DNA from: Haloarcula hispanica ATCC 33960
Lineage (GTDB): Archaea; Halobacteriota; Halobacteria; Halobacteriales; Haloarculaceae
Direction of reading: 5' to 3'
Assembly (NCBI RefSeq): GCF_000223905.1
Contig: NC_015948.1
Location: forward strand, 1,178,001 to 1,242,000
DNA length: 64,000 nt
In this document: positions 49,701 through 59,240 of the stretch, in pieces
How the letters are laid out: every line of letters starts with the position of its first letter
Numbering within the stretch: position 1 is the first letter of the stretch
The notes under the pieces: generated by a model
Seen by the model: only the letters and a program-made list of their open reading frames with translations
Databases searched by the model: none
What the model was told of the DNA's origin: nothing
Program-made: the position numbers and the translations under genes

Positions 49701-50786
49701 TCACTCGGCGACTTTGATATCGGGGCTGTCGATGGTGACGTTCTCAAGCGACCAGCCCTCGCTCGCGGAGCGGGCGTCGACACCGATGGCGTTCTGCTCG
49801 GCGGTCACGGAGACGGTCGATTCAGAGACAGTCCACGACGCGTTGGTCTTGACGGCGTGGATTCCCTGTTGCCGGCTTTCGATGATCGTATTCTGGATGG
49901 TCCACGCGCCGGTCGTTCGAGCGCTGAAGACCCCGATATCCCGGGTTTCGAGGGTGGCATTTTCGAGCGTCCACGCACCGCCCGAGAAAGCGGTCACCAG
50001 GCCGGTGTCGCTCCGGCGGACCGTCAGGTCGGTCACCGTCCAGTCGCCGTCGCTGTCGATAGCTTTGACGCCGGTATCGCTACGACGGACCTCCGTGTTC
50101 TGGACCGTCCAGTCGCCAGTTGTCCCGGAGGCATCGACGCCGTCCGCGCCGGACCGGTCGACGACGACCGCTGCGACCGCCCAGTCGCCGGAAGACCTGC
50201 GGACGTCGGCGCCGTCGCCGCCGACAGCGACGAAGCGAGTGTCGCGAATCGTCCAGTCGCCGCTGGTCTCGCGGGCGAACACGCCGCTGTAGGTCGTGCT
50301 GGCGACGGCGGCGTCCTCGATAGTCCAGTTCCCGGACGAATTCGGCGCGTAGACGCCGACGTCGGCAGCGATAACGGTCGTATTACTGACCGTCCAGTCG
50401 CCATTGGTCCCGTTGGCCATGACACCAAAGCGGTAGTTCCGCACGGTAAATCCGGTGACGGTCGGTTCGGCTGGGCCGGCCACCGTAACGCCGGTACCGT
50501 TGACGAACCGCGAGCCGTCCAGTATCGCCCGGTCGGGTGCGACGAGGGAGATGTTCTCGTTGATTCGGACTTCTTCGTAGTAGGTGCCCGGCCGGACCTC
50601 GACGGTGTCACCGCTATCGGCGGCGTCCACGGCGGCCTGTATCGACCGGTAGTCGGCACTCCCGTCTTTGTCGACGGTTAGTGTCTCCTGTGCCGTCTGT
50701 GTTCCTGCTACGCTTGCCGGTACCACGGCGAGGGTCAGCACTGCCGACAGCAAGAGGGCAATTACTGCTGCTCGTGCGTCGTCCAT
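49701..50786 (-). CDS. secreted right-handed beta-helix repeat protein
   Basis: A 361-residue protein with a Sec-type signal peptide (AVIALLLSAVLTLAVVPASVAG). The pectate-lyase-type first coils read DYRSIQAAVDAADSGDTVEV and RPGTYYEE. From about residue 125 there are ten consecutive coils of about 23-28 residues, each with G-x-W-T or a close variant (GDWTV, GNWTI, GDWTI, GAWTL). This resembles NosD/pectin-lyase-like beta helices. No catalytic residues were recognised, so it may be a binding or surface-structure protein. It is monocistronic, divergent from the XPB helicase gene. Confidence 0.85.
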   Translation of the reverse strand: MDDARAAVIALLLSAVLTLAVVPASVAGTQTAQETLTVDKDGSADYRSIQAAVDAADSGDTVEVRPGTYYEEVRINENISLVAPDRAILDGSRFVNGTGVTVAGPAEPTVTGFTVRNYRFGVMANGTNGDWTVSNTTVIAADVGVYAPNSSGNWTIEDAAVASTTYSGVFARETSGDWTIRDTRFVAVGGDGADVRRSSGDWAVAAVVVDRSGADGVDASGTTGDWTVQNTEVRRSDTGVKAIDSDGDWTVTDLTVRRSDTGLVTAFSGGAWTLENATLETRDIGVFSARTTGAWTIQNTIIESRQQGIHAVKTNASWTVSESTVSVTAEQNAIGVDARSASEGWSLENVTIDSPDIKVAE

Positions 50787-54010: not shown

Positions 54011-55234
54011 TCAGGTCGCTTCGTCAAGTGGCTCTTCGGACCGCTGTCGCTGCCACTGTGGCACTTCGAGGAGGAGTCGGAGCGGCCAGATGACGTAGTA
54101 CAGCGGATGCAGCGGACCGGGGAGCGGGCAAAACTGGTACTCCGAGTAAGTCGGGTGAAGCGACGAATGCAACAGCAGGAGCGGCACCAGCGCAGTTGCC
54201 GAATCGCTGGCAGCCAGGTGAAACTGAGCGGCCTCGAACTGCGTGGGTGCCTGTGGCGTCCCAGCGGCCAGCGATTCGACGACGGCCTCGGTTAACTCGG
54301 TGACGCGGTCGTCCGTGCGAAGGCGATCCAGTATCGGCGCTGGGAGGGCATACCCGAAGACAGTACGGGCGAGCGCGGCCCCGAGCAGTAGGTTCCGCTG
54401 GACGCCAGTTTCCCGCGCCCGAGCGAGGACGTGTGACCAGTCGGCTTCCGTCGACTCCAGCGCCGCAACGAAATCACAGAGCCACTTCAGGAGATACCAG
54501 CGGTGCTTGGTGCCGTGGAACGCTAATACGAGTAGCCGATCTGGCTGTGCAAGCGCCGGAAGCGGTTGGCCGCCGACCGATACGGTGTCGCGGCGGTCCC
54601 AGAGTTCACCGAAGGATGTGGAGAACGGTCGCTCGGCATCGCCAACGCGCCAGCGAAGTTCCACGTCGAACTCCGGACCGCGCATTTCGTACTCGTGAAC
54701 GATAGCCTTCGTCACGGGACCGCCCAACAGCGCCGCGTCGTCCAATCGCGGCGTGCCCCCGCGCCACTCGTAGCCTCGCTCTTCCAGAATATCCGCGGCG
54801 ACAGTGATATCTTCAGGATGGACGAGCAGATCCAGATCGTTGTACTCCCGCACCGTTGCGTCGTCGTAGGTGGCGGCCGAAAGCACCGGTCCCTTGAACG
54901 GTACCGCGCGTACACCGCGTGTCTCAAAACTCTCGATTATCTCCTGTAGCTCGGTCGTGAACGCGAGATTCCGCATCCGCTTTCCCTGTACTGTGCTGTT
55001 AAGTCGTGTCAACACGGACTCTGGCACGGTGAACGCAGCACTGCTCTCGCGTGCCATCGGTTCCAGCCCCTGATAGAGGAGTTGCACGACGCCGTGATAC
55101 CGAGCGAGTTCAACGACGCGGTCCCAGTCTGGCGTGTCATCCAGCGCGGGAAGCTCGGGGGAAGCGTCGGTGACGATTGCGGTACGAACACAGTCGACTA
55201 CCAATTGGAGCTCGGGTTCAGCCTCCGTTAGCAT
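54011..55234 (-). CDS. NTP_transf_5-type nucleotidyltransferase of the RiPP cluster
   Basis: A 407-residue protein of the uncharacterised nucleotidyltransferase family found in several bacterial lasso-peptide clusters. The catalytic region is VPFKGPVLSAATYDD followed by VREYNDLDLLVHPED, holding the lysine-glycine and Asp-x-Asp residues of the family. A second conserved part is LLVLAFHGTKHRWYLLKWLCD. The start overlaps the kinase stop by seven bases, so translation is coupled. It is the last gene of the minus-strand RiPP operon. It may transfer a nucleotide to the peptide or to its phosphorylated terminus; that is inference. Confidence 0.85.
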   Translation of the reverse strand: MLTEAEPELQLVVDCVRTAIVTDASPELPALDDTPDWDRVVELARYHGVVQLLYQGLEPMARESSAAFTVPESVLTRLNSTVQGKRMRNLAFTTELQEIIESFETRGVRAVPFKGPVLSAATYDDATVREYNDLDLLVHPEDITVAADILEERGYEWRGGTPRLDDAALLGGPVTKAIVHEYEMRGPEFDVELRWRVGDAERPFSTSFGELWDRRDTVSVGGQPLPALAQPDRLLVLAFHGTKHRWYLLKWLCDFVAALESTEADWSHVLARARETGVQRNLLLGAALARTVFGYALPAPILDRLRTDDRVTELTEAVVESLAAGTPQAPTQFEAAQFHLAASDSATALVPLLLLHSSLHPTYSEYQFCPLPGPLHPLYYVIWPLRLLLEVPQWQRQRSEEPLDEAT

Positions 55235-56142
55235 GGCTCACTCTCGAGATCAGACTGAATCCGGTCTACGACCTCCGGGAGCATATCGAGATCGAACGGC
55301 CGGCGGAGCCATTTTATATCTGTCATATCGACGATCTCCCCGCAAGCACTGAAATTGGCCACGGCCTGGCCGTCGGCATCCAGCGCGCCCAGCGTGTACG
55401 TGTTATCGACGAGCGCCATGACCTGTTCGTCCGGCCTGACTGAGTCCACCCCGATAGATTCACCGTCTTCGAGCAGATAGATGCGTTCTAGCGGCACCGG
55501 AGTCGCGGGCTGGTCGTGTCTGAGCCCGTAGAAGTGTCGCGGGCGCCCGCTGTGGACCTGTTCCGGCGGCTCGACCGGGGGGTCAAACGCCGCAACTGCC
55601 TCCGGGTCGAGTTTCATCGATGGGTAGCCGCTCCGAACGACTGGTCCCGCATTATCCAGCGTTATCGCAGCCACGTCGTCGCTCAGGACACGGTGCCCGT
55701 CAAGCAAACAGGCCATCGCAGTCGTCGTTTTTCCGACCCCGGACTCCCCGACGAACGCCACTGCACGCCCGTCGATGCTGACAGTACTGGCGTGCAGTAC
55801 GAAGTAGCCCCGCTGGTCCAGCAGGTGGTTCAACGCCGGGCCGACCAGTACGTGGCGGAGGACTTCGCTTGGCACGTCCGAGGCCGGGTCTACAGCGATG
55901 GACGTCCCGTCGAGAATTCTGACCGTTGCGGCGTCGTATAGAAGGTAGTATTCGCGCTCGTCTACCGCGTGAAAGGTCGATTCGGAGTCAGCCGACAGTG
56001 GGCGAGGGAGCCGTTCTTCAGTGATGGTGACGTCGGCCCGCCCGTCGGGCTCTGTCTCAGCGGGCGGAAGCTCCGGTACGTCGAATGCCGAGCGGACTGT
56101 CAGTCCAAAAGCTTCGTACGTGGCTGTGCTTACTGTTGCCAT
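55228..56142 (-). CDS. HPr-kinase-like peptide kinase of the RiPP cluster
   Basis: A 304-residue protein. The N-terminal 110 residues are a beta-rich domain. The P-loop kinase core has the strand YFVLHASTVSIDGRAVAFVG, Walker A GESGVGKTT, the LLDGHRVLSDDVAAI segment with paired aspartates, and SGYPSMKL. This is the HprK-like class that phosphorylates the C-terminal Ser of certain bacterial lasso precursors (paeninodin type). The precursor gene immediately upstream encodes a peptide ending in Ser. ATG 56142 has an AGCAGG ribosome-site-like sequence; a GTG at 56199 is an alternative start. Confidence 0.85.
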   Translation of the reverse strand: MATVSTATYEAFGLTVRSAFDVPELPPAETEPDGRADVTITEERLPRPLSADSESTFHAVDEREYYLLYDAATVRILDGTSIAVDPASDVPSEVLRHVLVGPALNHLLDQRGYFVLHASTVSIDGRAVAFVGESGVGKTTTAMACLLDGHRVLSDDVAAITLDNAGPVVRSGYPSMKLDPEAVAAFDPPVEPPEQVHSGRPRHFYGLRHDQPATPVPLERIYLLEDGESIGVDSVRPDEQVMALVDNTYTLGALDADGQAVANFSACGEIVDMTDIKWLRRPFDLDMLPEVVDRIQSDLESEPC

Positions 56143-56375
56143 CCTGCTAGGTCCCTCCCTGCGTAGTTGTCCATCGATTCCGTCCGTGCTGAAACACACC
56201 CCATCTACGACACCCCTGGTTCATACCAGATCGCTTGACTGCTGTGGTGGATAAGAATGCGCTCTCTACTTCCGACACACAGCCACGAAACCGTCACGAC
56301 GTAGCCATTGACCGGTGCCAGTGTCGAGGATCAATAAAGGAGGGATCAGTTAGATACGTGAACCGACTGCGGACT
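56143..56375. other. gap between precursor and kinase genes
   Basis: No gene supported. A TATA-like TTCTTATCC on the minus strand near 56250 could give the kinase and nucleotidyltransferase genes a separate transcript. A 25-codon frame ending just before the kinase ATG lacks any leader motif. Confidence 0.4.
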
Positions 56376-56474
56376 TTAACTCCACTTCCCGTATCCGTCG
56401 TCGTGGTCCCACCAGTTCGTCTTTTCTTCGACAGTTCCATACGTTTCGACCGACGGCGTTTCGTATTCCTTCAT
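56376..56474 (-). CDS. RiPP precursor peptide, lasso-type leader, 32 residues
   Basis: A previously easy-to-miss gene between the B2 protease and kinase genes. The leader has Y4, P7, V9, G13 and T19 in exactly the spacing of the lasso leader motif YxxPx(L/V)xxxGxxxxxT, bound by PqqD-like B1 proteins. By the usual rule that this Thr is at position -2, the core is residues 21-32, WWDHDDGYGKWS. The C-terminal Ser32 fits the adjacent HPr-kinase-like enzyme. The core lacks Asp/Glu at positions 7-9, which would normally close the lasso ring. Cleavage after T19 would instead put Asp at position 7. A GGGGGT ribosome-site-like sequence precedes the ATG. The gene is supported by motif, context and codon use, not by homology search. 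Confidence 0.85.
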   Translation of the reverse strand: MKEYETPSVETYGTVEEKTNWWDHDDGYGKWS

Positions 56475-56527
56475 GGGTTACCCCCGCCTCTGGTTTCAGA
56501 TGTAGGTGTATTTGTTATAGTATCCAT
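56471..56527 (-). CDS. 18-residue ORF coupled to the precursor gene
   Basis: The minus-strand ATG at 56527 opens an 18-codon frame (MDTITNTPTSETRGGGNP) whose TGA overlaps the precursor ATG as ATGA. It is hydrophilic and resembles nothing known. It may be a leader ORF controlling precursor translation, or chance. Confidence 0.35.
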   Translation of the reverse strand: MDTITNTPTSETRGGGNP

Positions 56528-56566: not shown

Positions 56567-57004
56567 TTAGCCACGTACTTCGCGTTCCGTGAGTGTGCGG
56601 AAGCGCCCGAAGTCGTCGACATCCCCGATAAGGACAGCCCCGTTAGACTCGATCCAAGCGTGAGCCTCGAACGTCTCGGACTGGGTGTCCACGCCGAAGC
56701 GGAGACGATGCGGCAGGTTGTTGGCTACCAGCAGTGTGCTACCAGTGAGCGCTCGGTCAAGACAATCGTAGGTACCCGGAAGACGTGATCCCGCTGTCAG
56801 AACCGCCCACCGCACTGACTCTGGTGACCCGGACTGACGATGACACGGGAGGTACTGAGAGACTATACCGAAATATCGCTCTGCGTCCTCCAGCCCAGCG
56901 ACTGCAAGCAATACCTTGCTCGCAACGATCAGTACCACAGCTTCACAGAGCAATAGCTTCTGCGCCCGTGGCAACGCCCTGAACTCACGGAGTCGGGCTC
57001 GCAT
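56567..57004 (-). CDS. lasso-type B2 leader peptidase (transglutaminase-like)
   Basis: A 145-residue cysteine-protease-like protein. A hydrophobic segment near the start (KLLLCEAVVLIVASKVLLAV) precedes the core. The catalytic triad is visible as Cys in GTYDCLDRALTGSTLLVANN, His in FEAHAWIESNG, and Asp in VLIGDVDDFG. This is the B2 family that removes lasso leaders with help from the PqqD-like B1. The ATG at 57004 overlaps the B1 gene end by 20 bases. An upstream start at 57082 would add 26 basic residues overlapping B1 and is less likely. Confidence 0.88.
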   Translation of the reverse strand: MRARLREFRALPRAQKLLLCEAVVLIVASKVLLAVAGLEDAERYFGIVSQYLPCHRQSGSPESVRWAVLTAGSRLPGTYDCLDRALTGSTLLVANNLPHRLRFGVDTQSETFEAHAWIESNGAVLIGDVDDFGRFRTLTEREVRG

Positions 57005-57281
57005 CGATCTTGACGAGTTGCTCCGCGGCAAGCGTTTCCAGGAATCGTTCCACGTCAGTTGCCACTCGGTCTCTGTCGACATCGTACTCCTCGACTAGCG
57101 TTGAAACGATAGCCGCTGGTTCCGTCGGTTCCTGGATTCGGTCCCAGATGTCCGGGCCGACGCCCGACAGGCCCTGGTACCGCCCCGTCTCGTTGTTGAG
57201 CAGCACGATCTCGCCGTCGATAGTCGTGGTCACACAGTTATCAGTTGCGACGACAGTCGATCCAGAATCTATCGCGACCAT
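56985..57281 (-). CDS. PqqD-like B1 leader-binding protein (RRE)
   Basis: A 98-residue PqqD-family winged helix-turn-helix protein. Typical features are the strand pair DGEIVLLNNETGRYQGLSGV, GPDIWDRIQEP, and the helices IVSTLVEEYDVDRDRVATDV and VERFLETLAAEQLV. In lasso and other RiPP systems it binds the leader YxxP motif and presents it to the B2 protease. It is the first gene of the minus-strand operon. A TATA-like ACAAATAG about 30 bases upstream predicts a leaderless transcript. Confidence 0.9.
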   Translation of the reverse strand: MVAIDSGSTVVATDNCVTTTIDGEIVLLNNETGRYQGLSGVGPDIWDRIQEPTEPAAIVSTLVEEYDVDRDRVATDVERFLETLAAEQLVKIDASPTP

Positions 57282-57431: not shown

Positions 57432-59240
57432 ATGACTGATACTCCCTCCGTCAGTGAAAAATACGCATCGCTGCGCCGTGTGGCACTGTATCGTCCGGCG
57501 CTGACGGGGAGTATCGTCGCCGCCAGCCTCTTCGTGATGCTGCTGGAGGGCGTTGGCCTCTCGTTCCTGTTTCCCATACTCGACGCTGCACAGGGCGGGC
57601 AAGGCCTCCCACTGCAGGCGGACGGCGTCACCGGCCAGTTCCTGTCCGCGTACGCCGCCGCCGGACTGCCGCTCACGCTCGAATCCCTGTTACTCGGTCT
57701 CGCGTGCGTGATGGTCGTCCGGTTCACGGCATCGTTTGCGGTGAAGTGGCTCGCGGCGAAGCTTACACAGACGTACGAACGCGATCTCAAGAACAGGGCC
57801 TATGAACTGGCGATGGGCGCGTCGGTCGCCTACTACGACGACAAGGGCTCCGACGACATCATGAACACGATTCTGACACAGACCCGGTACGCTGGCCGTG
57901 TCATCGGCCGGATTATCCAGTTCTTCCAGCAGGCAATCCTCTGTCTAGTGTATATCGGGATCGCACTCGCTATCGCTCCGGTGCTGGCAGTCGGTGCAGC
58001 TGTCGCTCTCGGCGGTGTCACGGCGATCATCAGATACGGCATCGAGCCCGGGTACGCCGTCGGCGACCGTGTGGCGACGGCAAACGAACGGCTGCAGGAG
58101 ACAACACAGGCGGGGACACAGGGTATCCGTGACGTGAAGCTGTTCGGTATGCGCGACGGACTGCTTGCCGAGTTCCGGGCCACGCTCGACCGATACACCT
58201 CGACCAGCATCGCCGTTCGCCGGAACGAGGTCGCAATCGGTAGCTTCTATCGGCTCTCGGTCTCGCTGCTCCTGTTTGGGCTCGTCTACGTCGCAATCAG
58301 TTTTCGGGCGCTGTCTATCGCGGAACTCGGCGTGTTCCTGTTCGCGATGCTCCGACTCGCGCCCCGACTGAGTTCGCTCAATTCTACCATCTACGCCGTC
58401 GAGGGAGAGCTCCCACATCTGGTTCGCACCCACCAGTTCATCGACCGCCTCGAAACCCAGCAGGAGCCCACTGGCGGGCAGCCAGTCCCGGACTGCATCG
58501 AGGAAGTCGCGTTCGAGAACGTCTCGTTCGCCTACGAGGACGAGCCAGTGCTCGCGGATTTCTCGATGGCTGTCGAGCGAGGCGAGTTCGTCGGTATCGT
58601 CGGTGAGTCCGGTGGTGGCAAATCGACAGTCGTCTCGCTGCTCACTCGGCTCTATGCGCCGGATAGCGGTGACGTTCTGGCGAACGGGACGCCGATTTCG
58701 ACCTATGCCCTCGACGAATGGCGTGACGCTGTTGCGATGGTCCGACAGGACCCGCATATCTTCAACGACTCCTTGCGGTACAACCTCACCGTCGGCAGGG
58801 ATATCTCCGACGAGACGCTGTACGAGGTCGCCGAGAAGGCCCTCGTCCTCGAATTTCTCGATGACCTTCCGCAGGGGCTCGACACGGTGCTGGGCGACGA
58901 CGGCGTGAAACTCTCCGGCGGGCAACGCCAGCGCGTCGCACTGGCCCGCGCGCTGCTGACGGACGCAGAGATACTCGTACTCGATGAAGCCACCAGCGAC
59001 CTCGACTCGAACCTGGAACGGCAAATCCATCGAACCGTCGAGACGCTCGACGGGGACCAGACCGTGATCGCAATCGCCCATCGGCTCTCGACCGTCTCTA
59101 ACGCCGACCGAATCTACACCGTCGAGGACGGGCAGGTCACAGAACGGGGCAGCCACGCCGAACTGCTTGACGACGACGGCACGTACGCGGAGTTGTACGC
59201 GATGCAGGGAACGGCAGCCGCACAGTCTTCCAGTGGCTAA
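57432..59240 (+). CDS. ABC exporter (fused TMD-NBD), lasso D-type
   Basis: A 602-residue half-transporter. About six helices occupy residues 20-320 (TGSIVAASLFVMLLEGVGLS; VAISFRALSIAELGVFLFAM). The ATPase has Walker A GESGGGKSTVVSLLTRLY, signature LSGGQRQRVALARALL, Walker B ILVLDEATSDLDS and H-loop IAIAHRLSTVSNADR. It works as a homodimer that pumps substrate outward. It is divergent from the B1-B2-precursor-kinase-nucleotidyltransferase operon with only 150 bases between, matching the exporter place in lasso clusters. No peptidase C39 domain is present. Confidence 0.9.
   Translation: MTDTPSVSEKYASLRRVALYRPALTGSIVAASLFVMLLEGVGLSFLFPILDAAQGGQGLPLQADGVTGQFLSAYAAAGLPLTLESLLLGLACVMVVRFTASFAVKWLAAKLTQTYERDLKNRAYELAMGASVAYYDDKGSDDIMNTILTQTRYAGRVIGRIIQFFQQAILCLVYIGIALAIAPVLAVGAAVALGGVTAIIRYGIEPGYAVGDRVATANERLQETTQAGTQGIRDVKLFGMRDGLLAEFRATLDRYTSTSIAVRRNEVAIGSFYRLSVSLLLFGLVYVAISFRALSIAELGVFLFAMLRLAPRLSSLNSTIYAVEGELPHLVRTHQFIDRLETQQEPTGGQPVPDCIEEVAFENVSFAYEDEPVLADFSMAVERGEFVGIVGESGGGKSTVVSLLTRLYAPDSGDVLANGTPISTYALDEWRDAVAMVRQDPHIFNDSLRYNLTVGRDISDETLYEVAEKALVLEFLDDLPQGLDTVLGDDGVKLSGGQRQRVALARALLTDAEILVLDEATSDLDSNLERQIHRTVETLDGDQTVIAIAHRLSTVSNADRIYTVEDGQVTERGSHAELLDDDGTYAELYAMQGTAAAQSSSG

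Follow-up and report, generated by a model that had tools for sequence, protein, structure and literature searches.

The closest described system to the gene cluster analyzed here is that of the Linear Polyphosphorylated Peptides (LPP) of Bacillota (Popov et al., 2026), whose linear products arise in a cyclase-free pathway with a kinase, an NTP transferase, and an MsbA-like exporter (PMC13381572). LPP are regarded by their authors as restricted to Bacillota; their precursors carry the leader motif YxxPxVLxHQxIxFETxxS and are phosphorylated at Ser3 of the core, an S3Y variant staying unmodified (PMC13381572). Lasso kinases require the residues of their HKDD motif (PMC9266682). For archaea, the passage concerned in a 2023 genome note on a draft genome reports an antiSMASH RiPP-type cluster with B1, B2, and a kinase, possibly the same locus in a Haloarcula isolate, and that passage does not describe a precursor, the missing cyclase, or a mechanism (PMC10093198). 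A 2025 survey of archaeal RiPPs touches on lassopeptides in passing only, and the open-licence papers searched yielded no description of archaeal cyclase-less clusters.

Organization of the gene cluster

The window, i.e., the whole 64,000-nucleotide stretch of Haloarcula hispanica DNA that was analyzed, contains a cluster with the following features.

54011..55234, minus strand: PF14907 nucleotidyltransferase-like protein (NTase), 407 aa (PF14907, 2.5e-63)
55228..56199, minus strand: HprK-like kinase, likely true start ATG 56142
56376..56474, minus strand: predicted precursor peptide gene A, 32 aa; leader approximately residues 1-20 (Y4, P7, V9, G13, T19), core approximately 21-32 (WWDHDDGYGKWS)
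56480..56485, minus strand: Shine-Dalgarno-like GGGGGT in the 10-species alignment, GGAGGT in two relatives
56511..56519, minus strand: TATA-like element TATAACAAA, 45 nt ahead of the gene A ATG, conserved in the 10-species alignment
56567..57082, minus strand: B2, transglutaminase-like Cys leader peptidase, 171 aa (PF13471, 5.7e-18)
56985..57281, minus strand: B1, PqqD-type RiPP recognition element, 98 aa (PF05402, E 9.6e-19)
57432..59240, plus strand: MsbA-like ABC exporter, 602 aa, divergently transcribed (PF00005/PF00664)

B1 matches the lasso_PqqD model NF033536 with 1.1e-19, short of the cut-off of the model, and its nearest relative in the PDB is TbiB1, a lasso B1 protein of solved structure (5v1u/5v1v, 3.8e-14); from its family, B1 is expected to bind the leader. 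B2 exceeds the NCBIfam cut-off for lasso B2 proteins (NF033537, 7e-23), and its catalytic Cys107 and His141 are invariant across the cyclase-less set described below. The kinase has an intact His-Lys-Asp-Asp motif (H117, K138, D155, and D156, invariant in 20 kinases), and its AlphaFold model shows the PEPCK/HprK fold (pLDDT 91.6). The PDB holds no sequence relative of either B2 or the NTase. For the AlphaFold model of the latter (pLDDT 84), the nearest folds are those of ANT(2'')-Ia, LnuA, and MenAT1, and more weakly FKRP. ANT(2'')-Ia and LnuA are aminoglycoside and lincosamide adenylyltransferases, and FKRP is a CDP-ribitol-using transferase, so that the modeled fold makes transfer of either a nucleotide or a sugar-phosphate conceivable. 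The ABC exporter gene is kept in most of the clusters of relatives.

The element TATAACAAA probably represents the promoter of gene A, and GGGGGT/GGAGGT, which resembles GGRGGT, a putative Shine-Dalgarno site. Between gene A and the kinase gene, a 28-bp stretch, CATTCTTATCCACCACAGCAGTCAAGCG (56259-56232, minus strand), is nearly unchanged in ten Haloarcula species with variable flanks, and may be a promoter or regulatory element. No Rfam families were detected in the locus. Elsewhere in the window, a NosD/beta-helix protein with repeated GDWTV-like units is encoded at 49701-50786 (minus strand).

Coding status and conservation of gene A

A previous reading of the sequence alone (the sequence-only reading) had proposed a 32-codon minus-strand frame with Tyr4, Pro7, Val9, Gly13, and Thr19, and translation of the 99-nt frame 56474-56376 to MKEYETPSVETYGTVEEKTNWWDHDDGYGKWS* bears this out, as does its location, flanked by B2 (57082-56567) and the kinase ORF, both encoded on the strand of gene A. 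Among the ORFs of 20 aa or more in the 64-kb window, gene A alone matches YxxPx[LV]xxxGxxxxxT. The NCBIfam leader model NF033521 gives gene A 15.4 bits and its cut-off of 19 is not reached, while the precursors L210b, L061, and L050 of related clusters exceed it.

Peptide A is identical in nine of ten close Haloarcula species and differs by S32D in the remaining one; an eleventh Haloarcula genome, that of H. salina, encodes a diverged ortholog, MNYEEPSVETYGTVEEKTNWWHDDGYGKWD, with the leader pattern kept. Carriers of the locus include H. amylolytica, H. argentinensis, H. sebkhae, H. vallismortis, and H. salina, and its position is the same in all Haloarcula carriers, with a DUF790 gene on one side and an RsmB/F gene on the other. 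The peptide is almost invariant in nine relatives in which B2 shares 84-97% identity with the window's copy. The dN/dS value of gene A is 0.037, compared to 0.10-0.23 for five neighboring genes; its dS of 0.136 also lies well under the 0.31-0.39 of the neighbors. The sequence-only reading had made its proposal depend on conserved leader positions in related clusters and on constraint in the synonymous/nonsynonymous pattern, and both were found. Gene A is regarded as coding because of this conservation, comprising nine identical copies, the S32D variant, the diverged ortholog, and the low dN/dS. That it is a chance ORF, as its mere 32 codons might suggest, is practically inconceivable, being refuted already by the conservation of the same peptide in nine species, with nine of the 11 variable sites at third codon positions; moreover, Markov-shuffled windows predict 0.125 motif ORFs per 64 kb, and 60 shuffles of the window gave no short ORF with the motif near its start. 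Judging from these sequence comparisons, gene A almost certainly encodes a genuine precursor served by lasso-peptide-type machinery. The invariance of the peptide over nine Haloarcula species is more in keeping with a conserved partner, such as a receptor, a metal, or a cell-envelope target, than with a bacteriocin, which would change quickly. Culturable members of the genus offer a means of looking for the target of this invariant peptide.

Haloarchaeal clusters with and without a cyclase

Matches to the lasso B2 model were found in 33 of 391 sampled genomes of Halobacteria, and the clusters are of two kinds. Those of the first kind contain an Asn-synthetase-like cyclase and precursors such as MSRESNDTYESPKVTEFGSVESLTESDKVGTGEDEYSGATSLTGSVV; the cyclase of cluster L063, for example, scores 606 bits against the NF033535 cut-off of 525, and three cyclase-bearing control genomes (G322, G144, G022) all pass this cut-off. 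L063, L070, L054, L058, and others appear as true haloarchaeal lasso clusters, sharing the lasso cyclase, a ring motif [NDEK]Kx5[DE], and C-terminal GS[IV]. The second kind, to which the window's cluster belongs, consists of B1, B2, kinase, NTase, and usually the ABC exporter, with the cyclase absent. It comprises the clusters of 11 Haloarcula genomes and seven further clusters from other genera in which the operon is conserved (L064, L210, L061, L050, L051, L060, and L214). The haloarchaeal cluster L066 (genome G033) was left out of the cyclase-less set because its C gene lies approximately 20 kb from B1/B2.

None of the 17 genomes with clusters of the second kind has a gene reaching the cut-off of the lasso cyclase model NF033535, and four of them (G013, G030, G066, and G461, the last being just 78% complete) show no cyclase match whatever. 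PF00733, NF033535, and a haloarchaeal C protein, used as queries, revealed no cyclase in the window, in the 20 kb beyond, around six other clusters, or in the genome as a whole, and a search of a plasmid collection gave nothing useful. The missing cyclase had gone unmentioned in the sequence-only reading.

The leader is conserved in 18 cyclase-less precursors, and the 14 that were aligned show no variation at Y4, P7, and G13. Relatives carry three to five precursors with varied cores; one precursor core (L060, 9035-9178) has a long Gly run and ends with PIGYGQ. In a tree calculated without L210 and L214, which were found later, a single branch (95/92; 96% of bootstraps) sets apart the 16 B2 proteins from cyclase-less clusters, which span three families and represent one old lineage. 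B2 of this group reads AHAW, versus AHSW in the cyclase-bearing clusters. The kinase and NTase trees require two or more changes, L060 forming a long, unsure branch.

Outside this set, Dyadobacter loci (L115, 8537-11315, and others) contain a B1-B2-kinase-NTase cassette among housekeeping genes, without a cyclase match or visible precursor. Small ORFs with YxxPxLxxxGxxxxxTLKGGS occur in Spirosoma approximately 5 kb from a B2 gene, with no cyclase match nearby (L118, 3601-3753; L126, 3200-3343; L142, 4670-4822).

Ring-forming capacity of the cores

The core of peptide A contains acidic residues at positions 3, 5, and 6 only and no Asp or Glu at 7, 8, or 9, and as judged from its sequence it is unable to form a 7-9 lasso ring. 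Six of the 18 cyclase-less cores, though not the window's, could geometrically hold such a ring plus tail, which counts against the cyclase-free explanation given below. The ring motif [NDEK]Kx5[DE] is present in 26 of 30 cores with a cyclase and in none of 18 without, and the corresponding numbers for a GS[IVTLD]-type motif at the C terminus are 25 of 30 and none of 18; since these motifs were chosen after viewing the cores and the sequences are related rather than independent, the counts describe the difference rather than test it. Counting acceptors by strict T+2 core numbering gives similar values for both groups (7/18 without and 12/30 with a cyclase), and is undiscriminating because the ring start seems to be shifted in haloarchaea. 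The boundary assigned to the gene A leader follows the Thr -2 rule and is provisional: Thr may not always occupy -2 if the haloarchaeal lasso ring begins at the N/D of [ND]KxG, which leaves the predicted cleavage site uncertain.

Proposed pathway and alternative explanations

The lasso precursor proposed in the sequence-only reading was retained in part. A B1-recognized leader is supported by the motif, the operon position, the conservation, the proximity of B1 to TbiB1, and the score of B2 above the NCBIfam cut-off, and the core had been flagged as unusual. The assignment as a lasso precursor is not supported, as the leader motif and B1/B2 are present, but cyclase C and a core Asp/Glu at 7-9 with a threadable tail are not. 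Without a lasso-tying enzyme and with a core unable to form the ring, the product is most likely a short, linear, decorated peptide. We therefore consider it probable, from the sequence data, that gene A encodes the precursor of a cyclase-free RiPP with a lasso-type leader. B1 would bind the YxxPxVxxxG leader and deliver the precursor to two enzymes, the HprK-like kinase and the PF14907 NTase, for modification of its short core, which is rich in Tyr, Asp, and Gly; B2, the Cys protease, would remove the leader just after the Thr19 region, and the MsbA-like ABC protein would export a linear decorated peptide of approximately 12 residues. The order of these steps, the exact cleavage site, the modified residue, the export, and the biological role are as we infer them. 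By analogy, LPP, a working linear system with the same enzyme set apart from the peptidase (PMC13381572), argues for a cyclase-free pathway. A canonical AsnB (MCGI) split over two frames lies inside the cyclase-less cluster L210 (10915-12901, genome G436); it counts against the cyclase-free explanation, as an amide-forming enzyme is not foreign to every member.

An ordinary lasso peptide with the cyclase encoded elsewhere has a precedent in G033, with its distant C gene, and the window genome does have one close cyclase homolog, the AsnB-like L003 on the second replicon, which belongs to the same superfamily and shares about 25-33% identity with haloarchaeal C proteins. However, L003 reaches 197 bits versus the lasso cyclase cut-off of 525 and fits an asparagine synthase, it begins with MCGI, thus having the glutaminase Cys2 that is absent from the haloarchaeal cyclases examined, and it adjoins a glycosyltransferase-like gene. 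Moreover, the cluster is retained in G013 and G030 together with a precursor of 97-100% identity, without any cyclase match, and the acidic residues of the window's core are misplaced for a ring, all of which makes this explanation improbable. Similarly little speaks for peptide A serving to occupy B1, as a decoy or regulator, instead of giving rise to a product: its short core, near-complete invariance, and own promoter-like element would agree with such a role, but the window's cluster shows no other precursor, and the several precursors with varied cores in relatives fit a product role.

Within the cyclase-free explanation, the acceptor residue may be viewed in two ways. As with paeninodin and LPP, the kinase might (poly)phosphorylate the C-terminal Ser32 and the NTase place a sugar or nucleotide on the phosphate. 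PadeK, ThcoK, and PsmK act on a C-terminal Ser (PMC9266682), the core ends in Ser in nine of the ten close species, the HKDD motif is intact, and the S32D exchange could mimic a phosphate. Against this, two Haloarcula orthologs (the S32D variant and that of H. salina) end in Asp, yet retain an intact kinase, nine of 18 distinct cyclase-less cores lack any Ser or Thr, and a C-terminal Ser occurs in just three of 18; modification of Ser32 is possible, though less likely than not. Tyr is present in all 18 cyclase-less cores (chance 0.002 with residues dealt randomly over the cores, a result inflated by relatedness), and is a candidate acceptor because it is found also in the nine without Ser/Thr. 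We tentatively suggest, as one possibility, that the cyclase-less haloarchaeal clusters constitute a RiPP class of their own: the conserved core Tyr of a linear peptide released by B2 would be the target of the HprK-like kinase and the PF14907 NTase, yielding phospho- or nucleotidyl-tyrosine, possibly sugar-linked.

Comparison with known systems

The window's cluster resembles LPP in its YxxPx leader, stand-alone RRE, HprK-like kinase, NTP transferase, MsbA-like exporter, lack of a cyclase, and presumably linear product. It differs from LPP in several respects: LPP are cut by a SipW-like signal peptidase, whereas the window's cluster contains the Cys protease B2 and no SpI/SipW-like peptidase, the single S26 match of the genome lying approximately 1 Mb away; the window's leader, YETPSVETYGTVEEKTN, lacks VLxHQxIxFETxxS; the LPP target is core Ser3, whereas residue 3 of the window's core is Asp and half of the cyclase-less cores are devoid of Ser/Thr; and the host is an archaeon instead of a member of Bacillota. 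The system offers a ready test case for the action of HprK-like kinases and PF14907 transferases where Ser is absent.

Lasso peptides of the paeninodin/pseudomycoidin type (PadeK, PsmK, PsmN; PMC9266682) share B1, B2, the HprK-like kinase, a PsmN-type NTase, the ABC protein, and the C-terminal Ser with the window's cluster, which in contrast lacks the macrolactam cyclase and a ring acceptor and has a core of 12 aa. The cyclase-bearing haloarchaeal lasso clusters (e.g., L063, L070) have the leader YxxPxVTEYGSVExxT, B1, B2, kinase, NTase, and ABC protein in common with it, but differ by their NF033535 cyclase, cores with [NDEK]Kx5[DE] and C-terminal GS[IV], and AHSW rather than AHAW in B2. If our model holds, the lasso leader/B1/B2 machinery has been uncoupled from lasso formation in archaea, and in two domains of life the module for leader recognition and cleavage is used for products other than lassos, with two different peptidases.
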